Of a DNA stretch of 64,000 nt, positions 4,976 to 41,683 are shown one piece after another (position 1 is the stretch's first letter; each line of letters opens with the position of its first letter). This DNA comes from Victivallis vadensis (GTDB lineage: Bacteria; Verrucomicrobiota; Lentisphaeria; Victivallales; Victivallaceae). The stretch is taken from NCBI RefSeq assembly GCF_003096415.1, contig NZ_QEKH01000002.1:1-64000 (forward strand), read 5' to 3'. The notes beneath the pieces were generated by a model. It was not told the DNA's origin. It saw only the letters and a list, made by a program, of their open reading frames with translations, and searched no databases. Both the position numbers and the translations under genes were made by a program.

Positions 4976-6022
4976 ATGACCGATCTTGAGCTGAAAGAGC
5001 TGCTTTCCTTAACCGATCCGGCCGCGCTGCGTGAGCTGTACGACCGCGCCTACCGGGTCAAACTGCAATATATCGGGCCCCGGGTCAGCATCCGCGGGCT
5101 GATCGAAGTCAGCAACATCTGCGCGAAAAACTGCTTTTACTGCGGCATCCGGCGCGGCAACCATCTGGTGAAGCGCTACCGGATCGACGCCGACGAGATC
5201 GTTGAAACTGCGGTCTGGGCTTATGAACAGAAATTCGGTTCGATCGTGATGCAGTCCGGCGAAATCGAATCGCCGGAATTCGCCGCATTCATCGAAAGCG
5301 TGCTGAAACGCATCTCCGCCGCGACCGGTGGCGGGCTTGGCGTCACGTTGAGCTGCGGCGAGCAGTCGCCCGAAGTCTACGAGCGTTGGCGGAACGCGGG
5401 GGCGACCCGCTATCTGCTGCGCATCGAAGCCTCCAACCCGGAACTGTATCGCAGGCTCCATCCGGCGGATCACGATTTCAACGCCCGGCTGGAGTGCCTG
5501 CGTTCCCTGAGGAAGCTCGACTATCAGGTCGGCTCCGGCGTGATGATCGGCCTGCCGGGCCAGACCGTGGACGATCTGGTGCACGATCTGCGCTTTTTCG
5601 AAGAGTTCGATCTCGACATGATCGGCATGGGACCCTACATTCCGCACGCCGACACGCCGCTCGGTCACGGCATTGAAGTTACGGAGGAATACCGGAGGCG
5701 TCAGCTGGAAGCCGGCCTGCGCATGATCGCCTGCACCCGGCTGCTGCTCCGGGATGTGAACATCGCATCGACCACCGCGCTGCAGGCGCTGGGCGACGAC
5801 GGGCGCGAACTCGGACTTCTCGCCGGAGGCAATGTGGTGATGCCCAATATCACCGAAACCGGCTACCGCAAAGGCTACCAGCTCTACGAAGGCAAGCCCT
5901 CGCTGGAGGAGAGTTCGGCGGAGAGCCGCGACAACCTGTCGCGCCGGATCGCGTCGATCGGCGAAACCATCCGCTGGGCCGAACCCGGCGACTCGCTCCA
6001 CTACGCCGCCCGTCATCGCTGA
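4976..6022 (+). CDS. hydE: [FeFe]-hydrogenase maturation radical-SAM protein HydE
   Basis: A 348-residue radical-SAM enzyme that acts with HydG and HydF to build the dithiolate-bridged diiron part of the H-cluster of [FeFe] hydrogenase. The SAM cluster motif is CAKNCFYCGIR (C49, C53, C56), followed by the HydE-typical LVKRYR and IVMQSGE. The length fits HydE. The ATG at 4976 was chosen for AGGAG five bases upstream; the open frame continues upstream without one. HydG, HydF and the hydrogenase are not in the window. A role in fermentative hydrogen production is inferred. BioB and PylB are related, but the LVKRYR and QSGE segments favour HydE. Immediately after its stop a dispersed repeat begins. 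Confidence 0.88.
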   Translation: MTDLELKELLSLTDPAALRELYDRAYRVKLQYIGPRVSIRGLIEVSNICAKNCFYCGIRRGNHLVKRYRIDADEIVETAVWAYEQKFGSIVMQSGEIESPEFAAFIESVLKRISAATGGGLGVTLSCGEQSPEVYERWRNAGATRYLLRIEASNPELYRRLHPADHDFNARLECLRSLRKLDYQVGSGVMIGLPGQTVDDLVHDLRFFEEFDLDMIGMGPYIPHADTPLGHGIEVTEEYRRRQLEAGLRMIACTRLLLRDVNIASTTALQALGDDGRELGLLAGGNVVMPNITETGYRKGYQLYEGKPSLEESSAESRDNLSRRIASIGETIRWAEPGDSLHYAARHR

Positions 6023-6024
6023 CG

Positions 6025-6150
6025 CGGGGGAGGAGATGCCTCCGGCGGCCGGTGGCGCTTCACCCCCCGGTCCCCCCGACCGGCAAGGTGCCGGCGCCGG
6101 GTACGGTTTTGAGATTTTTGCATAGCAAAAATCTCAAAACCGGGTTATTG
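6025..6150 (+). repeat. Dispersed hairpin repeat, copy 1
   Basis: This stretch starts three bases after the hydE stop and matches, in inverted orientation, 39040-39157 directly after the stop of the M16 peptidase. Shared blocks are GCCTCCGGCGGCCGG, CCGGTCCCCCCGACC, GGCAAGGTGCCGGCGCCGGG and CGGTTTTGA. It contains a small hairpin CCGGCA-AGG-TGCCGG (6080-6094) and a long one (6104-6142) with an 18-bp perfect stem around the loop ATA. The long stem is T-rich and could end hydE transcription. The position after stop codons suggests an extragenic terminator-like or REP-like element. Confidence 0.7.
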
Positions 6151-6170
6151 TCTATCGGTGATACTCCGCA

Positions 6171-35928: not shown

Positions 35929-36038
35929 GTCGCCGGGTCAGATTACTCGTGGCCTGTCAAAAAATCGCGTAGAGCTGCTTGGTTCCCCACCTGACTCGGT
36001 TGGCACTTTTGACAACGCACGGGGTCCGGCCCGGCGAC
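35929..36038 (-). ncRNA. ffs: Signal recognition particle RNA (small bacterial type)
   Basis: The RNA pairs its ends (GUCGCCGGG with CCCGGCGAC) and has an inner helix UGUCAAAA/UUUUGACA. The apical domain (35972-35997) is diagnostic: GAG-UCAGG-UGG-GGAA-CCA-AGCAG-CUC. It has a GGAA tetraloop and the asymmetric loop sequences bound by Ffh. The length is about 110 nt, and UCUUUUUG follows as a terminator-like tail. The 5' end may lie a few bases further upstream, given the promoter at 36062-36089. The RNA forms the signal recognition particle with Ffh (45547-47004) and targets membrane and secreted proteins. No Alu domain is seen. Confidence 0.93.
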
Positions 36039-37092: not shown

Positions 37093-38064
37093 TCAGAAAA
37101 GTTCTCCCTGTTCCATGGCCGGGGAAGGCGCCGTTTCCGGCGCCGGGGCGGCGGAAGCGGCGGAAAACAGGTCGTCCTGATCCGGTTCGGGAGCGTTTTC
37201 CGGCACGACGGGGAGCTCCTTGAGAATGCTTTTGAGCTCCATGCGGCGGCAGATGTCGGCAATTTTCGCCCAGTCCGGTTCCCGGCGCGCCAGCACAGCT
37301 CCGAGGTCGGAGAAGCGTTCCGGCAGGTCGCTGCGCAGCCGGATCAACTCCTGGTTGCGCTTCAGGATATTTCCGGCGCCGGCAAGTTTCTTCTCGAATT
37401 TGGTGCCGGCCAGTTTTTCCGGATGCTCCAGCCACTCCGAGGCGGGGCCGTAGGTGTTGAGCAGCTGCGCCGCCCCTTTCGCGCCGATTCCCGGAACTCC
37501 CGGAATATTGTCGGAGCTGTCGCCGAGCAGCGCCAGATAATCGATCAGCAGTGCGGGCGGAACCTGAAATTTCGCGGTGATCTCCGCGACGCCCCGTTCT
37601 TCAAATCCGGCATTCCTGGGGGCGGGTGAAAGCATGGTGACCCGGTCGTCGACCAGTTGGGCGAGGTCTTTGTCGGAGCTGATGATCTTCACGGGGCCTT
37701 CGGCGGCGCGCGCAAAAGCGGCGGCGAGGTCGTCGGCTTCGTACTCCGGTTCTTCCAGCAGCGGCCAGCCGAAGGCTTCCGCCAGTTCGCGGATCACCGG
37801 AATCTGGGTGCGGAGCGCTTCCGGCATCGGCGGGCGGTTGGCCTTGTATTCCGGATTGAGTTTCATCCGGAACTCCACCTTGCCGCAGTCGAAGAGCATC
37901 GCTCCCCGGCTGGTGGGGTACTCCTTCTGGATGCCGAGCAGCAGCCGGGTGAACACAAAGACCGCGTTGGTCGGTTCCCCCCTGGAGTTGGTCAATTGGC
38001 GGATCGCGTAGAACGCGCGGAAAATCTGGGAGTAAGCGTCGATCAGAATCAGCTCGTCTGCCAT
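37093..38064 (-). CDS. 5'-3' exonuclease (FEN-type, Pol I N-domain-like)
   Basis: A 323-residue stand-alone 5'-nuclease. ATG 38064 has GGAGG seven bases upstream; a TTG one codon earlier is unlikely. The metal-binding acids are in LILIDAYSQIFRAFYA, MLFDCGKVEFR, EYEADDLAA and ISSDKDLAQLV, with the helix-hairpin-helix LGDSSDNIPGVPGIGAKGAAQLL. The C-terminal 40 residues are Pro-, Ala- and Glu-rich and end QGELF, which resembles a sliding-clamp binding motif (QxxLF). That would tether it to DNA polymerase III, which is inference. It probably removes RNA primers and flaps. A full polymerase I fused to it is absent. Confidence 0.88.
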   Translation of the reverse strand: MADELILIDAYSQIFRAFYAIRQLTNSRGEPTNAVFVFTRLLLGIQKEYPTSRGAMLFDCGKVEFRMKLNPEYKANRPPMPEALRTQIPVIRELAEAFGWPLLEEPEYEADDLAAAFARAAEGPVKIISSDKDLAQLVDDRVTMLSPAPRNAGFEERGVAEITAKFQVPPALLIDYLALLGDSSDNIPGVPGIGAKGAAQLLNTYGPASEWLEHPEKLAGTKFEKKLAGAGNILKRNQELIRLRSDLPERFSDLGAVLARREPDWAKIADICRRMELKSILKELPVVPENAPEPDQDDLFSAASAAPAPETAPSPAMEQGELF

Positions 38065-38126
38065 CAAAAAACCTCCGGAACATTGATCAAATCAAATCCG
38101 CCGCAACGGATCAAGACAAAAAAAAG

Positions 38127-38216
38127 GGTTCAAGGTTGAGTTATCCAGACGCTTAGAGGAGTAATTATGAAGAGGAGAAATTGCGTATAGGAGCCTGAAT
38201 AAACAGAACCTTGAAC
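38127..38216. repeat. 10-bp inverted repeat enclosing about 70 bases
   Basis: GTTCAAGGTT (38128-38137) and AACCTTGAAC (38207-38216) are perfect inverted copies about 69 bases apart. The enclosed sequence has AGAGGAG and a very short frame (MKRRNCV). It could be a structured RNA or the remains of a small mobile element. Confidence 0.4.
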
Positions 38217-38730
38217 ACTTCTTACTATAAACGGAAATTTTTCAAAATCAAATGGTTTTTGTCGATTTTACGAAAAAAAACGCTTTTTTTTTGATTTTTA
38301 TCGAAAAAAGACCGTTTTTCACTGTTCATTTTACAGATATGCCGGAGATGTGAAAAACTGATCGGTTGACTGTCGTTTTTCCATAACCATCGATCAATTA
38401 AGATTGTTTATCGGAAATAAAAACTTTTGAGTCGAAAATAATAGTGGTTACGGTTTCAATTTGAAAATTAAAGTACCGATTAAATGGTTGAAAAGAGGGA
38501 ATCAACTGATTCGGTTGCAGCAGAGACTTATTGAGTTACTACTATTATGGTAGTTTTTTAGTGGTATCTAAGAAATAAAAAACGGCAATTGCATAAACTG
38601 GCATTCAGTCTCGATCGACGCATTGCCGGTCTGGGGGCTGCAAAGGTTGACCGCTTAAGTTTCTTTTGCCGATATGACGCGTCTTTGTCGAGTGTCGCCT
38701 TTGTGCTTGCTTCTGCGACGCAAAGCGTCT

Positions 38731-38762
38731 TTGGAGTGCGGAGATTCATCTCCGCACTCCAA
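38731..38762. repeat. Strong 14-bp hairpin
   Basis: TTGGAGTGCGGAGA and TCTCCGCACTCCAA are fully complementary around the loop TTCA. One arm (CTCCGCACTCCAAGGTTG) recurs at 29921-29938. No T-run follows, so a terminator is unlikely; an RNA or repeat element is more likely. Confidence 0.6.
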
Positions 38763-38920
38763 GGTTGTCAGTTCGCCTTTCGTGGATTTTTTCGATTATC
38801 ATAAACGAGCCGCAGCCGTGCCGTTTTCGCGGCAGGCGGGTCTTACGGCCTTGCGGCCTCCAGACCTTGTACGCTACGCGGCCTGATTTTCAATCGCATC
38901 TCCGGTAGCTGGGCGCTGCA

Positions 38921-38941
38921 GCAGCGGCAAGGTGCCGCTGC
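38921..38941 (+). repeat. Hairpin-repeat fragment with extended stem
   Basis: GCAGCGGCA-AGG-TGCCGCTGC keeps the AGG loop and GGCA/TGCC core of the repeat at 6080-6094 but extends the stem to 9 bp with different base pairs that still match. Confidence 0.55.
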
Positions 38942-39039
38942 CGTGACTGTCTCCGACGGCCAACGGTTTCGCCGTTGGATCACGACCGGGTGGCACCCGG
39001 TGGCGTATACCGTCTATAGAGTGAATAAGCTGATAGCTG

Positions 39040-39157
39040 ATAACCCCGGTTTTGCAATTTTTACGTAGTAAAAATTCAAAACCGCACCCGGCGCCGGCAC
39101 CTTGCCGGTCGGGGGGACCGGGGGGCGAAGCGCCCCCGGCCGCCGGAGGCTCCCTCC
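39040..39157 (-). repeat. Dispersed hairpin repeat, copy 2
   Basis: Read on the minus strand it starts directly after the stop of the M16 peptidase and follows the same order as the copy at 6025-6150: GCCTCCGGCGGCCGG, CCGGTCCCCCCGACC, GGCAAGGTGCCGGCGCCGGG and CGGTTTTGA. The hairpin at 39047-39084 has ATTTTTAC/GTAAAAAT where copy 1 has ATTTTTGC/GCAAAAAT. That is a compensating G-C to A-T change. A further hairpin GGGGGCG-AAG-CGCCCCC lies at 39121-39137. Confidence 0.7.
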
Positions 39158-41683
39158 TCAGGCCGTGGGGACATCGCGGCCTGCAAAGACGCGCACGGCG
39201 GCGGTGTTGTCCATGAAGTCGCGGATGGTTTCGTTGACGGAGTCGCGGGGGCAGGCGCGCAGTTCCGCTTCGTGGAGCCAGCTCTCCTCCGCCGGGCGGC
39301 CGTAGTGCAGTGAAAGCACGCTTGCGGTCAGCGCAGAGCCGACGGATTCGGTCAGGCGCGCTGCGGCGAAGGCCGCCCCTTCGCGGGCGGCGAGGAATTC
39401 CTCTTCGCGCAGCCCTTCGGTGGCGAGCCGGTCGATTTCGGCGGCGATGAGCCGGTCGGCCACCTCTGCCTGTTCGGCGGTGGTGATCACGTGGAACATC
39501 AGCGAACCGCGGTGGAAACCGCCGGACATCTGCATGCCGGTGGTGTAAGCGAGCGCGTTGTCTTCGCGGATGCTGCGGAACAGCTGCGAGGCCAGCCCGT
39601 TGGTCGCCTGGTTCAGGATTTCAAAGGCCGGATAGCGCCGGTCGCAGCCGCTGATGCCGGGCAACGCGCGGATCACGGCGGTCTGTTCGCGTTCGATCGG
39701 CAGTGCGCCGCTGCGGAATCCGTGTTGGAAAACCGGTTCCGGCGGCAGTTCGATTTCCGGCTGGTTCCAGTCGATGCCGCCGGCAAGGAGTTCCGCGAAC
39801 TCCCGCGTTTCTTCGGCGGAACAGTCGCCGCCGAAGCCGAAGACCACCCGCGAGGGCGTCCAGCGGGAGCGGTAGAATTCACGGGCCTGCTCCGGGGTCA
39901 GCGCCGCGAGCTGCTGTTCGGTGCCGTTTACGCCCCAGCCGTAGGGGTGGCTGCCGAAGAGCTGCCGCCGGGCGAGGTCCTGCGCGGCGGCGCGGGGGGA
40001 TTGGGCGCGGCTGCGCAGGAGTTCGAGCCGGTTGTAACATTCGCGTTCAAACTCCTCCGGGCCGAAGGCCGGGGCATGGAGAATTTCAGCGAGGATTTCC
40101 AGCGCCTTTTTGAACTTTGCACGCGGTGCGTTGAGTTCGAGCACCCAAGAGTTCAGCCCGGAATTCACCGAAAGATCGGCTCCGCAGCCGTCGAGGCGGC
40201 GCAGGATTTCAGTTTCATTGTGGAACTTGGTTCCCGCCGTGATCAGGTCGGCGGTCAGGCTGCTGAGCCCGCCTTGCGCCGGAGTTTCGAAGATGGTTCC
40301 GGCCGGGAGCAGCAGCGCGAGGTCGATCATCGGCAGCCGGCGGTCGGTCAGCGTCAGCACGCGGGCGCCGTTGCCGAGCCGGGAGGTTTCCGGGCGCGGC
40401 GGTTTCGGCGCCGGAGCGGAGTGAATCCGCGCGGACTCCTTCCCGGTCAGCTGTGTGACCGTGGCGAAGCTGTTTTCGTCCAGATAGGTCGCGGCAACCC
40501 GGCGGATATCGTCGACGTCGAGCTTCGCGAGCTTTTCCATATAGAGGTCGGAGAGGGCAGGGGCGTCGTTCGCGATGACTCCTCCGGCGATATCGGCCGC
40601 GATTTCGCGCAGGCCGCGCAGCTGGCGGAGATGGTCGGCGGTCTGCTGCATCTTTTCGCGCTCGACCTCCGCTTTGGTGAGGTCGCCTTTGCGGATTTTC
40701 TCCAGCTCGCGCTTCAGGGCGGATTGGAGCTTGTTGAGTTTGCCGGGAGCGGCGGTGCAGCCGATGCCGAGCAGGCCGCCGCAGGGCTGGGTGTAGCAGA
40801 AGCTGCGCAGGTCGATCGCGAGCTTCTGCTCAAGCTCAAGCACCCGGACCAGCCGGGAACCGTCGCCCATGCCGAAGATGCCGGCCAGCACGTCCAGCGC
40901 CGGAATATCCGGGTGGGACGCTTCCGGAATCCGCACCGCCGTCGCCAGCCGGGCCAGCGGGTCGGCGAAGCGGAACGAGCTGGAGCGGGGCGCACACTGA
41001 ACCGGTTCCTCCGGCAGCAGCGCCTCCGCCAGATGTGCGGCGGGCCAGTCGCCGAGCAGTGCGCCGATCTCCTCGTAAGCCTGTTCGGGGACCACATCGC
41101 CGACGATTACCCAGAAACAGCGCCCGGGCGTGTAGCGCTCCCGGTAATAGGTTTCCATCATCTCTTTGCTGACGCCGGCGATCAGTTCCCGGTAGCCGAT
41201 GATCGGGTGGCGCATCGGGTGAATCTTGAACAGCTCCTGATTCAGCGCTTCAAAGAGCCGCCGGGACGGATTGTCCACACCGAGCTCACGTTCGCGCAGG
41301 ATCACCTCGCGCTCCGCCCTGAAGCGGGCTTCCGGGAACTCCGGATACCGCACCATCGAGCCGAGCACCTTCACCGCCGTCCCGAGATGCTTGGCCGCCA
41401 CTGTCGCGTGATAAGCGGTGTGGTCGTAACTGGTGTAGGCGTTCATCGTGCCGCCGAGCCGGTCGATCGTGTCGGAAACGGCGGTGCCGGGGTAGTCGCA
41501 GCATCCCTGGAACATCATGTGTTCGAGAAAGTGGGAGAGGCCGCAGCCGAGATGCCGCCCCTCGTGGATGCTGCCGGTGCGGATGAAGCATTCGACTTCG
41601 ACCGCAGTGCCCGGCTGGGGCAGCACGTGGAGCCGCATGCCGTTTTCATAGTGGAAGGTGACGACGTCGCGGTAGAATTTCAT
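39158..41683 (-). CDS. M16-family (insulinase-type) zinc metalloprotease
   Basis: An 841-residue protein with two M16 halves. ATG 41683 has GGAG four bases upstream; the frame is open to a TTG 24 bases earlier. The inverted zinc motif HFLEH is at 51-55, and the third ligand Glu is in the following EVILRERELG region. The C-terminal half lacks HXXEH, as is normal for the inactive partner domain. There is no signal peptide, so it is probably cytoplasmic, unlike some relatives. It is the last gene of the leftward block from ffh through mla. The role is probably peptide clearance. Confidence 0.88.
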   Translation of the reverse strand: MKFYRDVVTFHYENGMRLHVLPQPGTAVEVECFIRTGSIHEGRHLGCGLSHFLEHMMFQGCCDYPGTAVSDTIDRLGGTMNAYTSYDHTAYHATVAAKHLGTAVKVLGSMVRYPEFPEARFRAEREVILRERELGVDNPSRRLFEALNQELFKIHPMRHPIIGYRELIAGVSKEMMETYYRERYTPGRCFWVIVGDVVPEQAYEEIGALLGDWPAAHLAEALLPEEPVQCAPRSSSFRFADPLARLATAVRIPEASHPDIPALDVLAGIFGMGDGSRLVRVLELEQKLAIDLRSFCYTQPCGGLLGIGCTAAPGKLNKLQSALKRELEKIRKGDLTKAEVEREKMQQTADHLRQLRGLREIAADIAGGVIANDAPALSDLYMEKLAKLDVDDIRRVAATYLDENSFATVTQLTGKESARIHSAPAPKPPRPETSRLGNGARVLTLTDRRLPMIDLALLLPAGTIFETPAQGGLSSLTADLITAGTKFHNETEILRRLDGCGADLSVNSGLNSWVLELNAPRAKFKKALEILAEILHAPAFGPEEFERECYNRLELLRSRAQSPRAAAQDLARRQLFGSHPYGWGVNGTEQQLAALTPEQAREFYRSRWTPSRVVFGFGGDCSAEETREFAELLAGGIDWNQPEIELPPEPVFQHGFRSGALPIEREQTAVIRALPGISGCDRRYPAFEILNQATNGLASQLFRSIREDNALAYTTGMQMSGGFHRGSLMFHVITTAEQAEVADRLIAAEIDRLATEGLREEEFLAAREGAAFAAARLTESVGSALTASVLSLHYGRPAEESWLHEAELRACPRDSVNETIRDFMDNTAAVRVFAGRDVPTA

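Follow-up and report, generated by a model that had tools for sequence, protein, structure and literature searches.

Paired changes in a modular hairpin repeat behind stop codons of Victivallis vadensis point to template switching at the DNA level

BOX elements of the pneumococcus are intergenic mosaics of modules, and the repeat family described here is likewise such a mosaic, with a different sequence and a different number of modules. Closer in character are the REP and BIME repeats which, according to PMC2817692, are extragenic, present in many copies, built from palindromic units, assembled into mosaics by swapped modules and arranged as tandem units, features that recur in the V. vadensis family. 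The same paper describes REPs as species-specific, mentions proposed roles of REP/BIME in transcription termination, including Rho-dependent termination, and takes the preserved REP palindromes as “suggesting selection for complementary mutations”. That an RNA fold is under selection is usually proved by base changes that occur in pairs. The palindromes tagged with GTAG or CGTC, as presented in PMC3733652, are short, combine an invariant tag with an adjoining stem that varies, and occur in several phyla, as does the element analysed here; the terms “Desulfovibrio” and “Lentisphaer” have no mention in the text of that paper. Hairpins may also be reshaped by mutation: template switching between inverted repeats leaves homogenized arms and an inverted spacer, and loops were found flipped on already perfect arms in 9 of 10 cases (PMC8604942). 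Monttinen and Loytynoja (PMC8794818) consider a compensatory change combined with a loop inversion the strongest support for a template switch and report this combination as extremely rare in rRNA. Literature searches retrieved no work joining REPs and template switching and none on Victivallis repeats, nothing relevant on REPs with Desulfovibrio and, among the matches listed, no bacterial repeat paper matching the motif letters.

The window, i.e. the whole analysed stretch of 64,000 nucleotides of V. vadensis DNA, contains two copies of a composite repeat. A preliminary description had placed a sequence of approximately 120 bp after the stop codon of hydE and, inverted, after that of an M16 peptidase gene, and both copies are indeed present; they are 82% complementary across 119 nt, a length that no other inverted match of the window reaches, and a BLAST search with 6020–6160 retrieved copy 2 with E = 1.3e-34, far above chance. 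The gene before copy 1 is assigned as a HydE equivalog (TIGR03956, 323 bits versus a cut-off of 254.6), and the gene before copy 2 encodes a protein with paired M16 domains. The features, in window positions, are:

6020..6022, plus strand: TGA stop of hydE, 15 nt ahead of the first core
6038..6141, plus strand: copy 1, 104-nt core (A + A2 + B), covariance model E = 1.9e-19
6038..6050, plus strand: GCCTCCGGCGGCC tag of module A, common to several phyla
6049..6070, plus strand: hairpin A of copy 1 (CCGGTGGCGCTTCACCCCCCGG), position counted on the sequence
6078..6095, plus strand: module A2, hairpin CCGGCA-AGG-TGCCGG, from sequence and fold
6104..6142, plus strand: hairpin B of copy 1, perfect 18-bp arms, loop ATA (flipped form)
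39158..39160, minus strand: TGA stop of the M16 peptidase gene, 7 nt ahead of the second core
39048..39150, minus strand: copy 2 core (A + A2 + B), covariance model E = 8.6e-19
39118..39139, minus strand: hairpin A of copy 2, position counted
39093..39110, minus strand: module A2 of copy 2, position counted
39048..39083, minus strand: copy 2 hairpin B, an AC-type form with TAC as its loop and a single base left unpaired in the 3′ arm
38817..39047, minus strand: downstream cassettes C and D2 of copy 2, then E/F/G-like hairpins, outer end approximate

The core is composed of the tag, hairpin A, hairpin A2 (GACCGGCAAGGTGCCGGC) and the 37-nt hairpin B. The single-copy fold of copy 1 favours other pairing partners for the region of hairpin A. 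The arms of hairpin B read ATTTTTGC/GCAAAAAT in one window copy versus ATTTTTAC/GTAAAAAT in the other, and the difference described earlier, TTTTTGC/GCAAAAA versus TTTTTAC/GTAAAAA, is correct to the letter; copy 2 has an imperfect hairpin B, with one additional base in the 3′ arm (GGTTTTGAATTTTTAC-TAC-GTAAAAATTGCAAAACC). None of the downstream modules C to G is recognisable in copy 1, while copy 2 is followed by C, of the ACCGGGTG.CACCCGGT type, and D2 (CCAACGG..CCGTTGG).

The genome to which the window belongs (5.2 Mb, 87 contigs) was searched for further copies. BLAST with 6020–6160 gave at least 43 near-full-length matches (40 of 329 first-look candidates scored), and a covariance model, R1, built on 32 aligned copies gave at least 64 copies at E < 1e-9 (150 of 8549 first-look candidates scored), the 32 copies used for building being among these 64. 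The analysed set comprises the 64 matches with E < 1e-9 out of 135 R1 matches; some of the weaker 71 are overlapping reverse-strand matches to the palindromes and some belong to another element family. A coding-like ORF in sense orientation ends at most 30 nt upstream of the core in 38 and at most 60 nt upstream in 45 of the 64 copies, as called by a simple codon score that misses some real genes, e.g. one with a stop, seen by eye, 18 nt before the copy at C44:8926. At the mirror position, an antisense ORF end lies within 60 nt in 0/64 copies, and at 2000 random positions a stop was found within 30 nt in 3.3% and within 60 nt in 6.2%. The expectations that further copies exist and that they sit right after stop codons are thus borne out, and neither a scarcity of copies nor a lack of positional bias was observed. 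The 64 copies group into 54 clusters, eight of which hold two or three copies. Seven of the eight spacings between same-strand neighbours measure 331–348 nt and one 973 nt; the units are all on one strand in six of the eight multi-copy clusters and form inverted pairs in two. Many of the copies more than 60 nt away from a stop are later units of such clusters. An inverted repeat pair at C44:8926–9292 lies between same-strand genes that by eye resemble nrdD and nrdG; it forms a large fold-back within a likely operon.

Core and downstream hairpins C to G together span about 330 nt, and the latter are present at fixed distances in many copies. The slot at ~46 nt is occupied by C (ACCGGGTGCTACCCGGT) or C2 (ACCGGCACGTTGCCGGT), that at ~73 nt by D or D2 and that at ~91 nt by the arm GTCGGAGAC or CCGGAGGTA, with E, F and G next. 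For the slot pairs tested, all four combinations occur (B × C 14/11/6/8, C × D 14/5/10/3, B × D 14/5/9/4), and therefore copies swap modules. A complete 361-nt unit folds into a chain of hairpins (z = −6.5). The compared sequences demonstrate a mosaic family, in which modules are exchanged and tandem units of ~331–348 bp multiply locally.

Slots at constant positions, filled by alternative cassettes in every combination, correspond to the mosaic organization of BIMEs, the 45/64 cores within 60 nt past a coding-like ORF to their extragenic location, and tandem gain as well as exchange between copies is visible in the family. Deviating from REP/BIME, the V. vadensis units lie in sense after stops and do not regularly alternate in orientation, 6/8 multi-copy clusters being confined to one strand. 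Neither GTAG nor CGTC was found by eye at the palindrome ends of the listed cores, where the foot of B reads GTAC/GGTTT..AAAACC/GGGG and that of A GGCGG/CC..GG/TCCC; in contrast to GTAG and CGTC, the V. vadensis tag GCCTCCGGCGG(CC) precedes the stem when the sense strand is read 5′ to 3′. Furthermore, module A is common to several phyla, whereas REPs are described as species-specific (PMC2817692). The family works like BIME repeats and is outside REP/RAYT by two tested features, the tag and the RAYT itself.

Hairpin B is the part of the core in which both arms had been reported to change together. Across the 32 aligned copies, two-sided changes affect 7 of 17 pairs (18 cells); 0/500 shuffles matched this covariation, and a shifted partner removes the signal. 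One conceivable explanation is that selection maintains RNA folding, in a 3′ mRNA stabilizer or a terminator, and that the pairs changed by normal compensatory substitution. The reality of the covariation, the sense-strand position of the copies after stops and the fold of copy 1, which is far better than that of shuffled sequences (z = −6.1), accord with it, but we consider it unlikely. One-sided changes that keep pairing by G-U are absent (0/539 cells in the 32 aligned copies), as opposed to 37 cells left unpaired. A wobble pair exists in 2/64 copies, and at the pair that distinguishes the arms of the two window copies the one-sided intermediate is A-C in 2/64 and G-U in 0/64. Imperfect arms are found in 41 of 61 classified copies (3 of the 64 are unclassified), mostly as C-A with C-T, as C-A with T-T, or as a one-base length difference. 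In addition, a conserved T run after hairpin B is absent, and the fold of copy 2 is only moderately better than that of shuffles (z = −2.9).

In the 64 copies the loops of hairpin B fall into four reverse-complement pairs with direct/flipped counts of 32/8 for TGC/GCA, 5/3 for TAC/GTA, 6/1 for TGT/ACA and 2/3 for TAT/ATA; two copies only (AAC) lie outside these pairs. Arms are perfect in 12/14 copies with a flipped loop versus 8/47 with an unflipped one (p = 4.7e-6), and the association persists when distinct hairpins are counted (9/10 versus 8/29, p = 8.7e-4). Swapped arms, which would be expected if a whole imperfect hairpin were inverted, were not seen by eye among the listed imperfect forms. 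Among the perfect forms, some are copied from the left arm and others from the right, even across the one-base length difference; arms of the AC type have been made perfect in both directions, and partial corrections are present. Arm homogenization in both directions and loop inversion are thus both found in hairpin B, as in the quasipalindromes undergoing template switching (PMC8604942, PMC8794818). These quasipalindromes were, however, described in yeast genes and rRNA, with the combination of change and inversion being very rare, whereas the V. vadensis genome contains nine distinct hairpins that are perfect as well as flipped.

Altogether, the lack of G-U cells, the imperfection of the commonest forms and the occurrence of flips on perfect arms fit poorly with a stepwise RNA compensation. 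In the proposed mechanism, template switching between the inverted repeats during replication would copy one hairpin arm from the other and would thereby turn imperfect arms of hairpin B into perfect ones, often accompanied by an inversion of the loop triplet. The data strongly indicate that the matched changes of hairpin B arise in this way at the DNA level. Arm homogenization with loop inversion being the published footprint of template switching, the paired changes are attributed to mutation, and the covariation of hairpin B is therefore not evidence for RNA selection. We infer the direction and the independence of the events from a single genome, the copies of which share common ancestry. 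Loops may also flip more readily on arms that are already perfect; the association would have a DNA-level origin either way. Selection on the RNA possibly acts on top of the mutational process. As to the preliminary description, its view that the joint arm change reflects a relevant folded structure stands insofar as the covariation is real, and not as an argument for RNA selection; between the suggested “RNA or single-stranded DNA”, the latter comes closer, since the arms are copied from each other at the DNA level. Its supposition that pairing is kept in further copies is realized only in part, as indicated by the large number of imperfect arms. Dozens of parallel hairpin copies within one genome make homogenization and inversion countable and thus render mutation and selection separable.

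We regard as likely a single joint explanation, which combines a composite repeat with a template-switched hairpin B, a putative hairpin block at the 3′ ends of mRNAs, a module A of cross-phylum distribution and a spread not based on RAYT.

The spread of the family was followed in related genomes. R1 applied with stricter filters to 41 genomes produced strong matches in V. vadensis only, and weak matches comprise 11 in the same-genus genome G005 and one in G014. A combined A2+B pattern had no match in a genome contig collection, from which the V. vadensis genome was possibly left out; on the basis of both searches, a distribution of hairpin B beyond the species was rejected. G005 has kept module A (BLAST identities mostly 87–92%), followed by other hairpins, and G002 and G003 possess a more distant version (75–82%). 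The latter two genomes, which belong to sister species, also have A/A2-like motifs before or inside the leaders of genes with a prepilin-like start, e.g. of a 491-codon ORF. Within 160 nt past the orthologous genes, neither module A nor A2 is present after hydE in any of 8 sister species or after M16 in any of 8. An element shared at orthologous loci is thereby discarded, and the repeat is no conserved part of these genes. Between the M16 and exonuclease genes, G007 has a gap of 225 nt without the repeat versus 1098 nt in the window; 211 nt of it, directly past the M16 stop, align to the segment 830–1043 nt past the M16 stop in the window. G007 was nevertheless rejected as a clean empty site because G001 carries a 182-codon gene between M16 and exonuclease, of which the window has no trace, so that a gene loss and a repeat gain may have come in either order. 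The middle gene of the G001 order M16 – 182-codon gene – exonuclease has been lost in the window lineage (38060–39160) and likewise in G007.

Dispersed copies that are missing at the orthologous sister loci, as well as the short gap in G007, would be explained by a MITE-like element that depends on a trans-acting transposase targeting sites just past stops, the perfect forms then being parental. This scenario appears quite unlikely on account of the single orientation relative to genes in 45/45 close cases and of the distribution of the RAYT domain Y1_Tnp. The latter has no match in the V. vadensis genome (99.5% complete draft), with control matches in 5/14 genomes, and is missing in 7/13 core-bearing or related genomes, including Oscillibacter with 86 and Myxococcota with 67 copies of module A. 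A RAYT/REPIN reading is ruled out by the missing domain in the genome of V. vadensis itself, and whatever spreads module A there is not a RAYT-type transposase. The suggestion that the repeat serves as a target for mobile elements found no backing either, none being seen and the RAYT-type transposase domain being absent from the genome.

With regard to function, we return to the reading in which mutation pairs the arms and the repeat affects the mRNA. The sense position after stops would put the repeat into the 3′ untranslated part of the upstream gene's transcript; where active at all, it would therefore most likely act as a hairpin block at the mRNA 3′ end, slowing 3′–5′ decay or helping Rho-linked termination. 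A role in mRNA stabilization or in Rho-linked termination, in analogy to the proposals for REP/BIME, is accordingly conceived as possible, and transcription seems to matter, given how strictly the copies keep the sense orientation after stops. Termination of the intrinsic (Rho-independent) type, with terminators copied across the genome, is very improbable and was rejected as a class: a lenient scan flags the hairpin at 6104–6142 as terminator-like and the location after stops would suit, but the T run directly past the stem is missing, the longest run within 12 nt past hairpin B being 1–3 in 63/64 copies and at least 4 in 1/64, C runs come after hairpin A, and the 24 scan sites are no excess over 22.0 in shuffles. 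Assignment to a known RNA family was likewise dismissed, the repeat having no Rfam match at the gathering score and the window giving an SRP RNA only.

Module A was traced further in the genome contig collection with the pattern GCCTCCGGCGGCC-NNGGG-loop-CCCNNGG, in which 21 bases are fixed. It matched at least 116 stretches, 80 of which were listed; the genera among the matches listed are Desulfovibrio, Solidesulfovibrio, Desulfoluna, Oscillibacter, Ruminococcus, Sandaracinobacter, Sandarakinorhabdus, Arboricoccus and Roseococcus, complemented by Myxococcota, SAR324 and isolated single matches in other taxa. Whole-genome counts on both strands, in which overlapping matches at one site may count twice, amount to 155 in Desulfoluna limicola, 141 and 180 in Solidesulfovibrio, 115 and 93 in Desulfovibrio sp., 86 in an Oscillibacter MAG, 67 in a Myxococcota MAG, 24 in Sandaracinobacter, 19 in Arboricoccus and 16 in bacterium SUG1264. 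Low counts were obtained for Sandarakinorhabdus (7), Ruminococcus (3), Roseococcus (2), SAR324 (1) and Streptomyces (1), those of 1–3 being uninformative as the genomes were picked for having a match. In none of 15 genomes did the pattern read backwards, or a rearranged one of equal composition, have a match; the rearranged one read backwards had 3 matches in the Oscillibacter MAG.

The preference for sites after stops extends to other phyla in varying degree, as judged by ORF length only, which raises the random rates to 9–21%. Among 66 matches with 600-nt flanks, an ORF of at least 150 codons ends at most 60 nt upstream in 35 cases in sense and in 6 in antisense (random 9%). Within 100 nt, 20 sampled Desulfoluna copies gave 17 sense and 2 antisense cases (random 15%), and 20 sampled Oscillibacter copies 12 and 7 (random 21%), a modest bias. 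The loop of module A in other phyla mostly has one orientation (20 ATGAT versus 3 ATCAT), an observation that weighs against the template-switch reading. In the Oscillibacter MAG, the perfect hairpin that comes after module A differs between copies (CCAGCCCTTTGAAAAGGGCTGG, CCAGGGAGGCACGCGCCTCCCTGG and others), a layout of core plus cassette as in V. vadensis. Judged from these matches, the module A type recurs in Desulfobacterota, Oscillibacter, Alphaproteobacteria and Myxococcota, phylum assignments which we take from the record titles on the basis of general knowledge. The agreement of the 13-nt tag plus the tail (GGACCCC or GGTCCCC) argues for a possible common origin of module A in the window and in the other phyla, the alternative being a likeness under some common constraint.

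On this basis we tentatively put forward, as an idea that may well prove wrong, a third broad superfamily of bacterial extragenic hairpins, which would be defined by the tag GCCTCCGGCGG(CC), a sense position after stops, an occurrence in at least four phyla, exchangeable partners, a RAYT-free spread and pairing maintained largely by template switching. If true, a covariation usually taken as proof of RNA function would be a product of mutation, and the spread of a cross-phylum core as well as its retention in the sense strand after stops would need explaining.

Several other elements were noticed in the genome and near the repeat. A second family consists of ~690-bp elements with inverted module-A-like ends (GGGATTTCGCCTTYGGCGA..GACCGGCAAGGTGCCGGCGCCGGGTAC) at C5:14825–15507, C7:135085–135769 and C10:57055–57740; the R1 matches include 11 plus/minus pairs 540–620 nt apart, three of which were read. 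Upstream of the 5′-3′ exonuclease gene, a ~90-nt block closed by GTTCAAGGT..ACCTTGAAC (38128–38216, minus strand) has no Rfam match and possibly represents an RNA gene or leader; its middle is nearly identical in G001 and G007, the exonuclease proteins being 65–79% identical. The palindrome TTTGGAGTGCGGAGATTCATCTCCGCACTCCAA, or a near variant of it, recurs close to the composite repeat at 38730–38762 and at two other loci. The SRP RNA of the window is the bacterial small type, located at 35933–36031 on the minus strand (RF00169, 55 bits).
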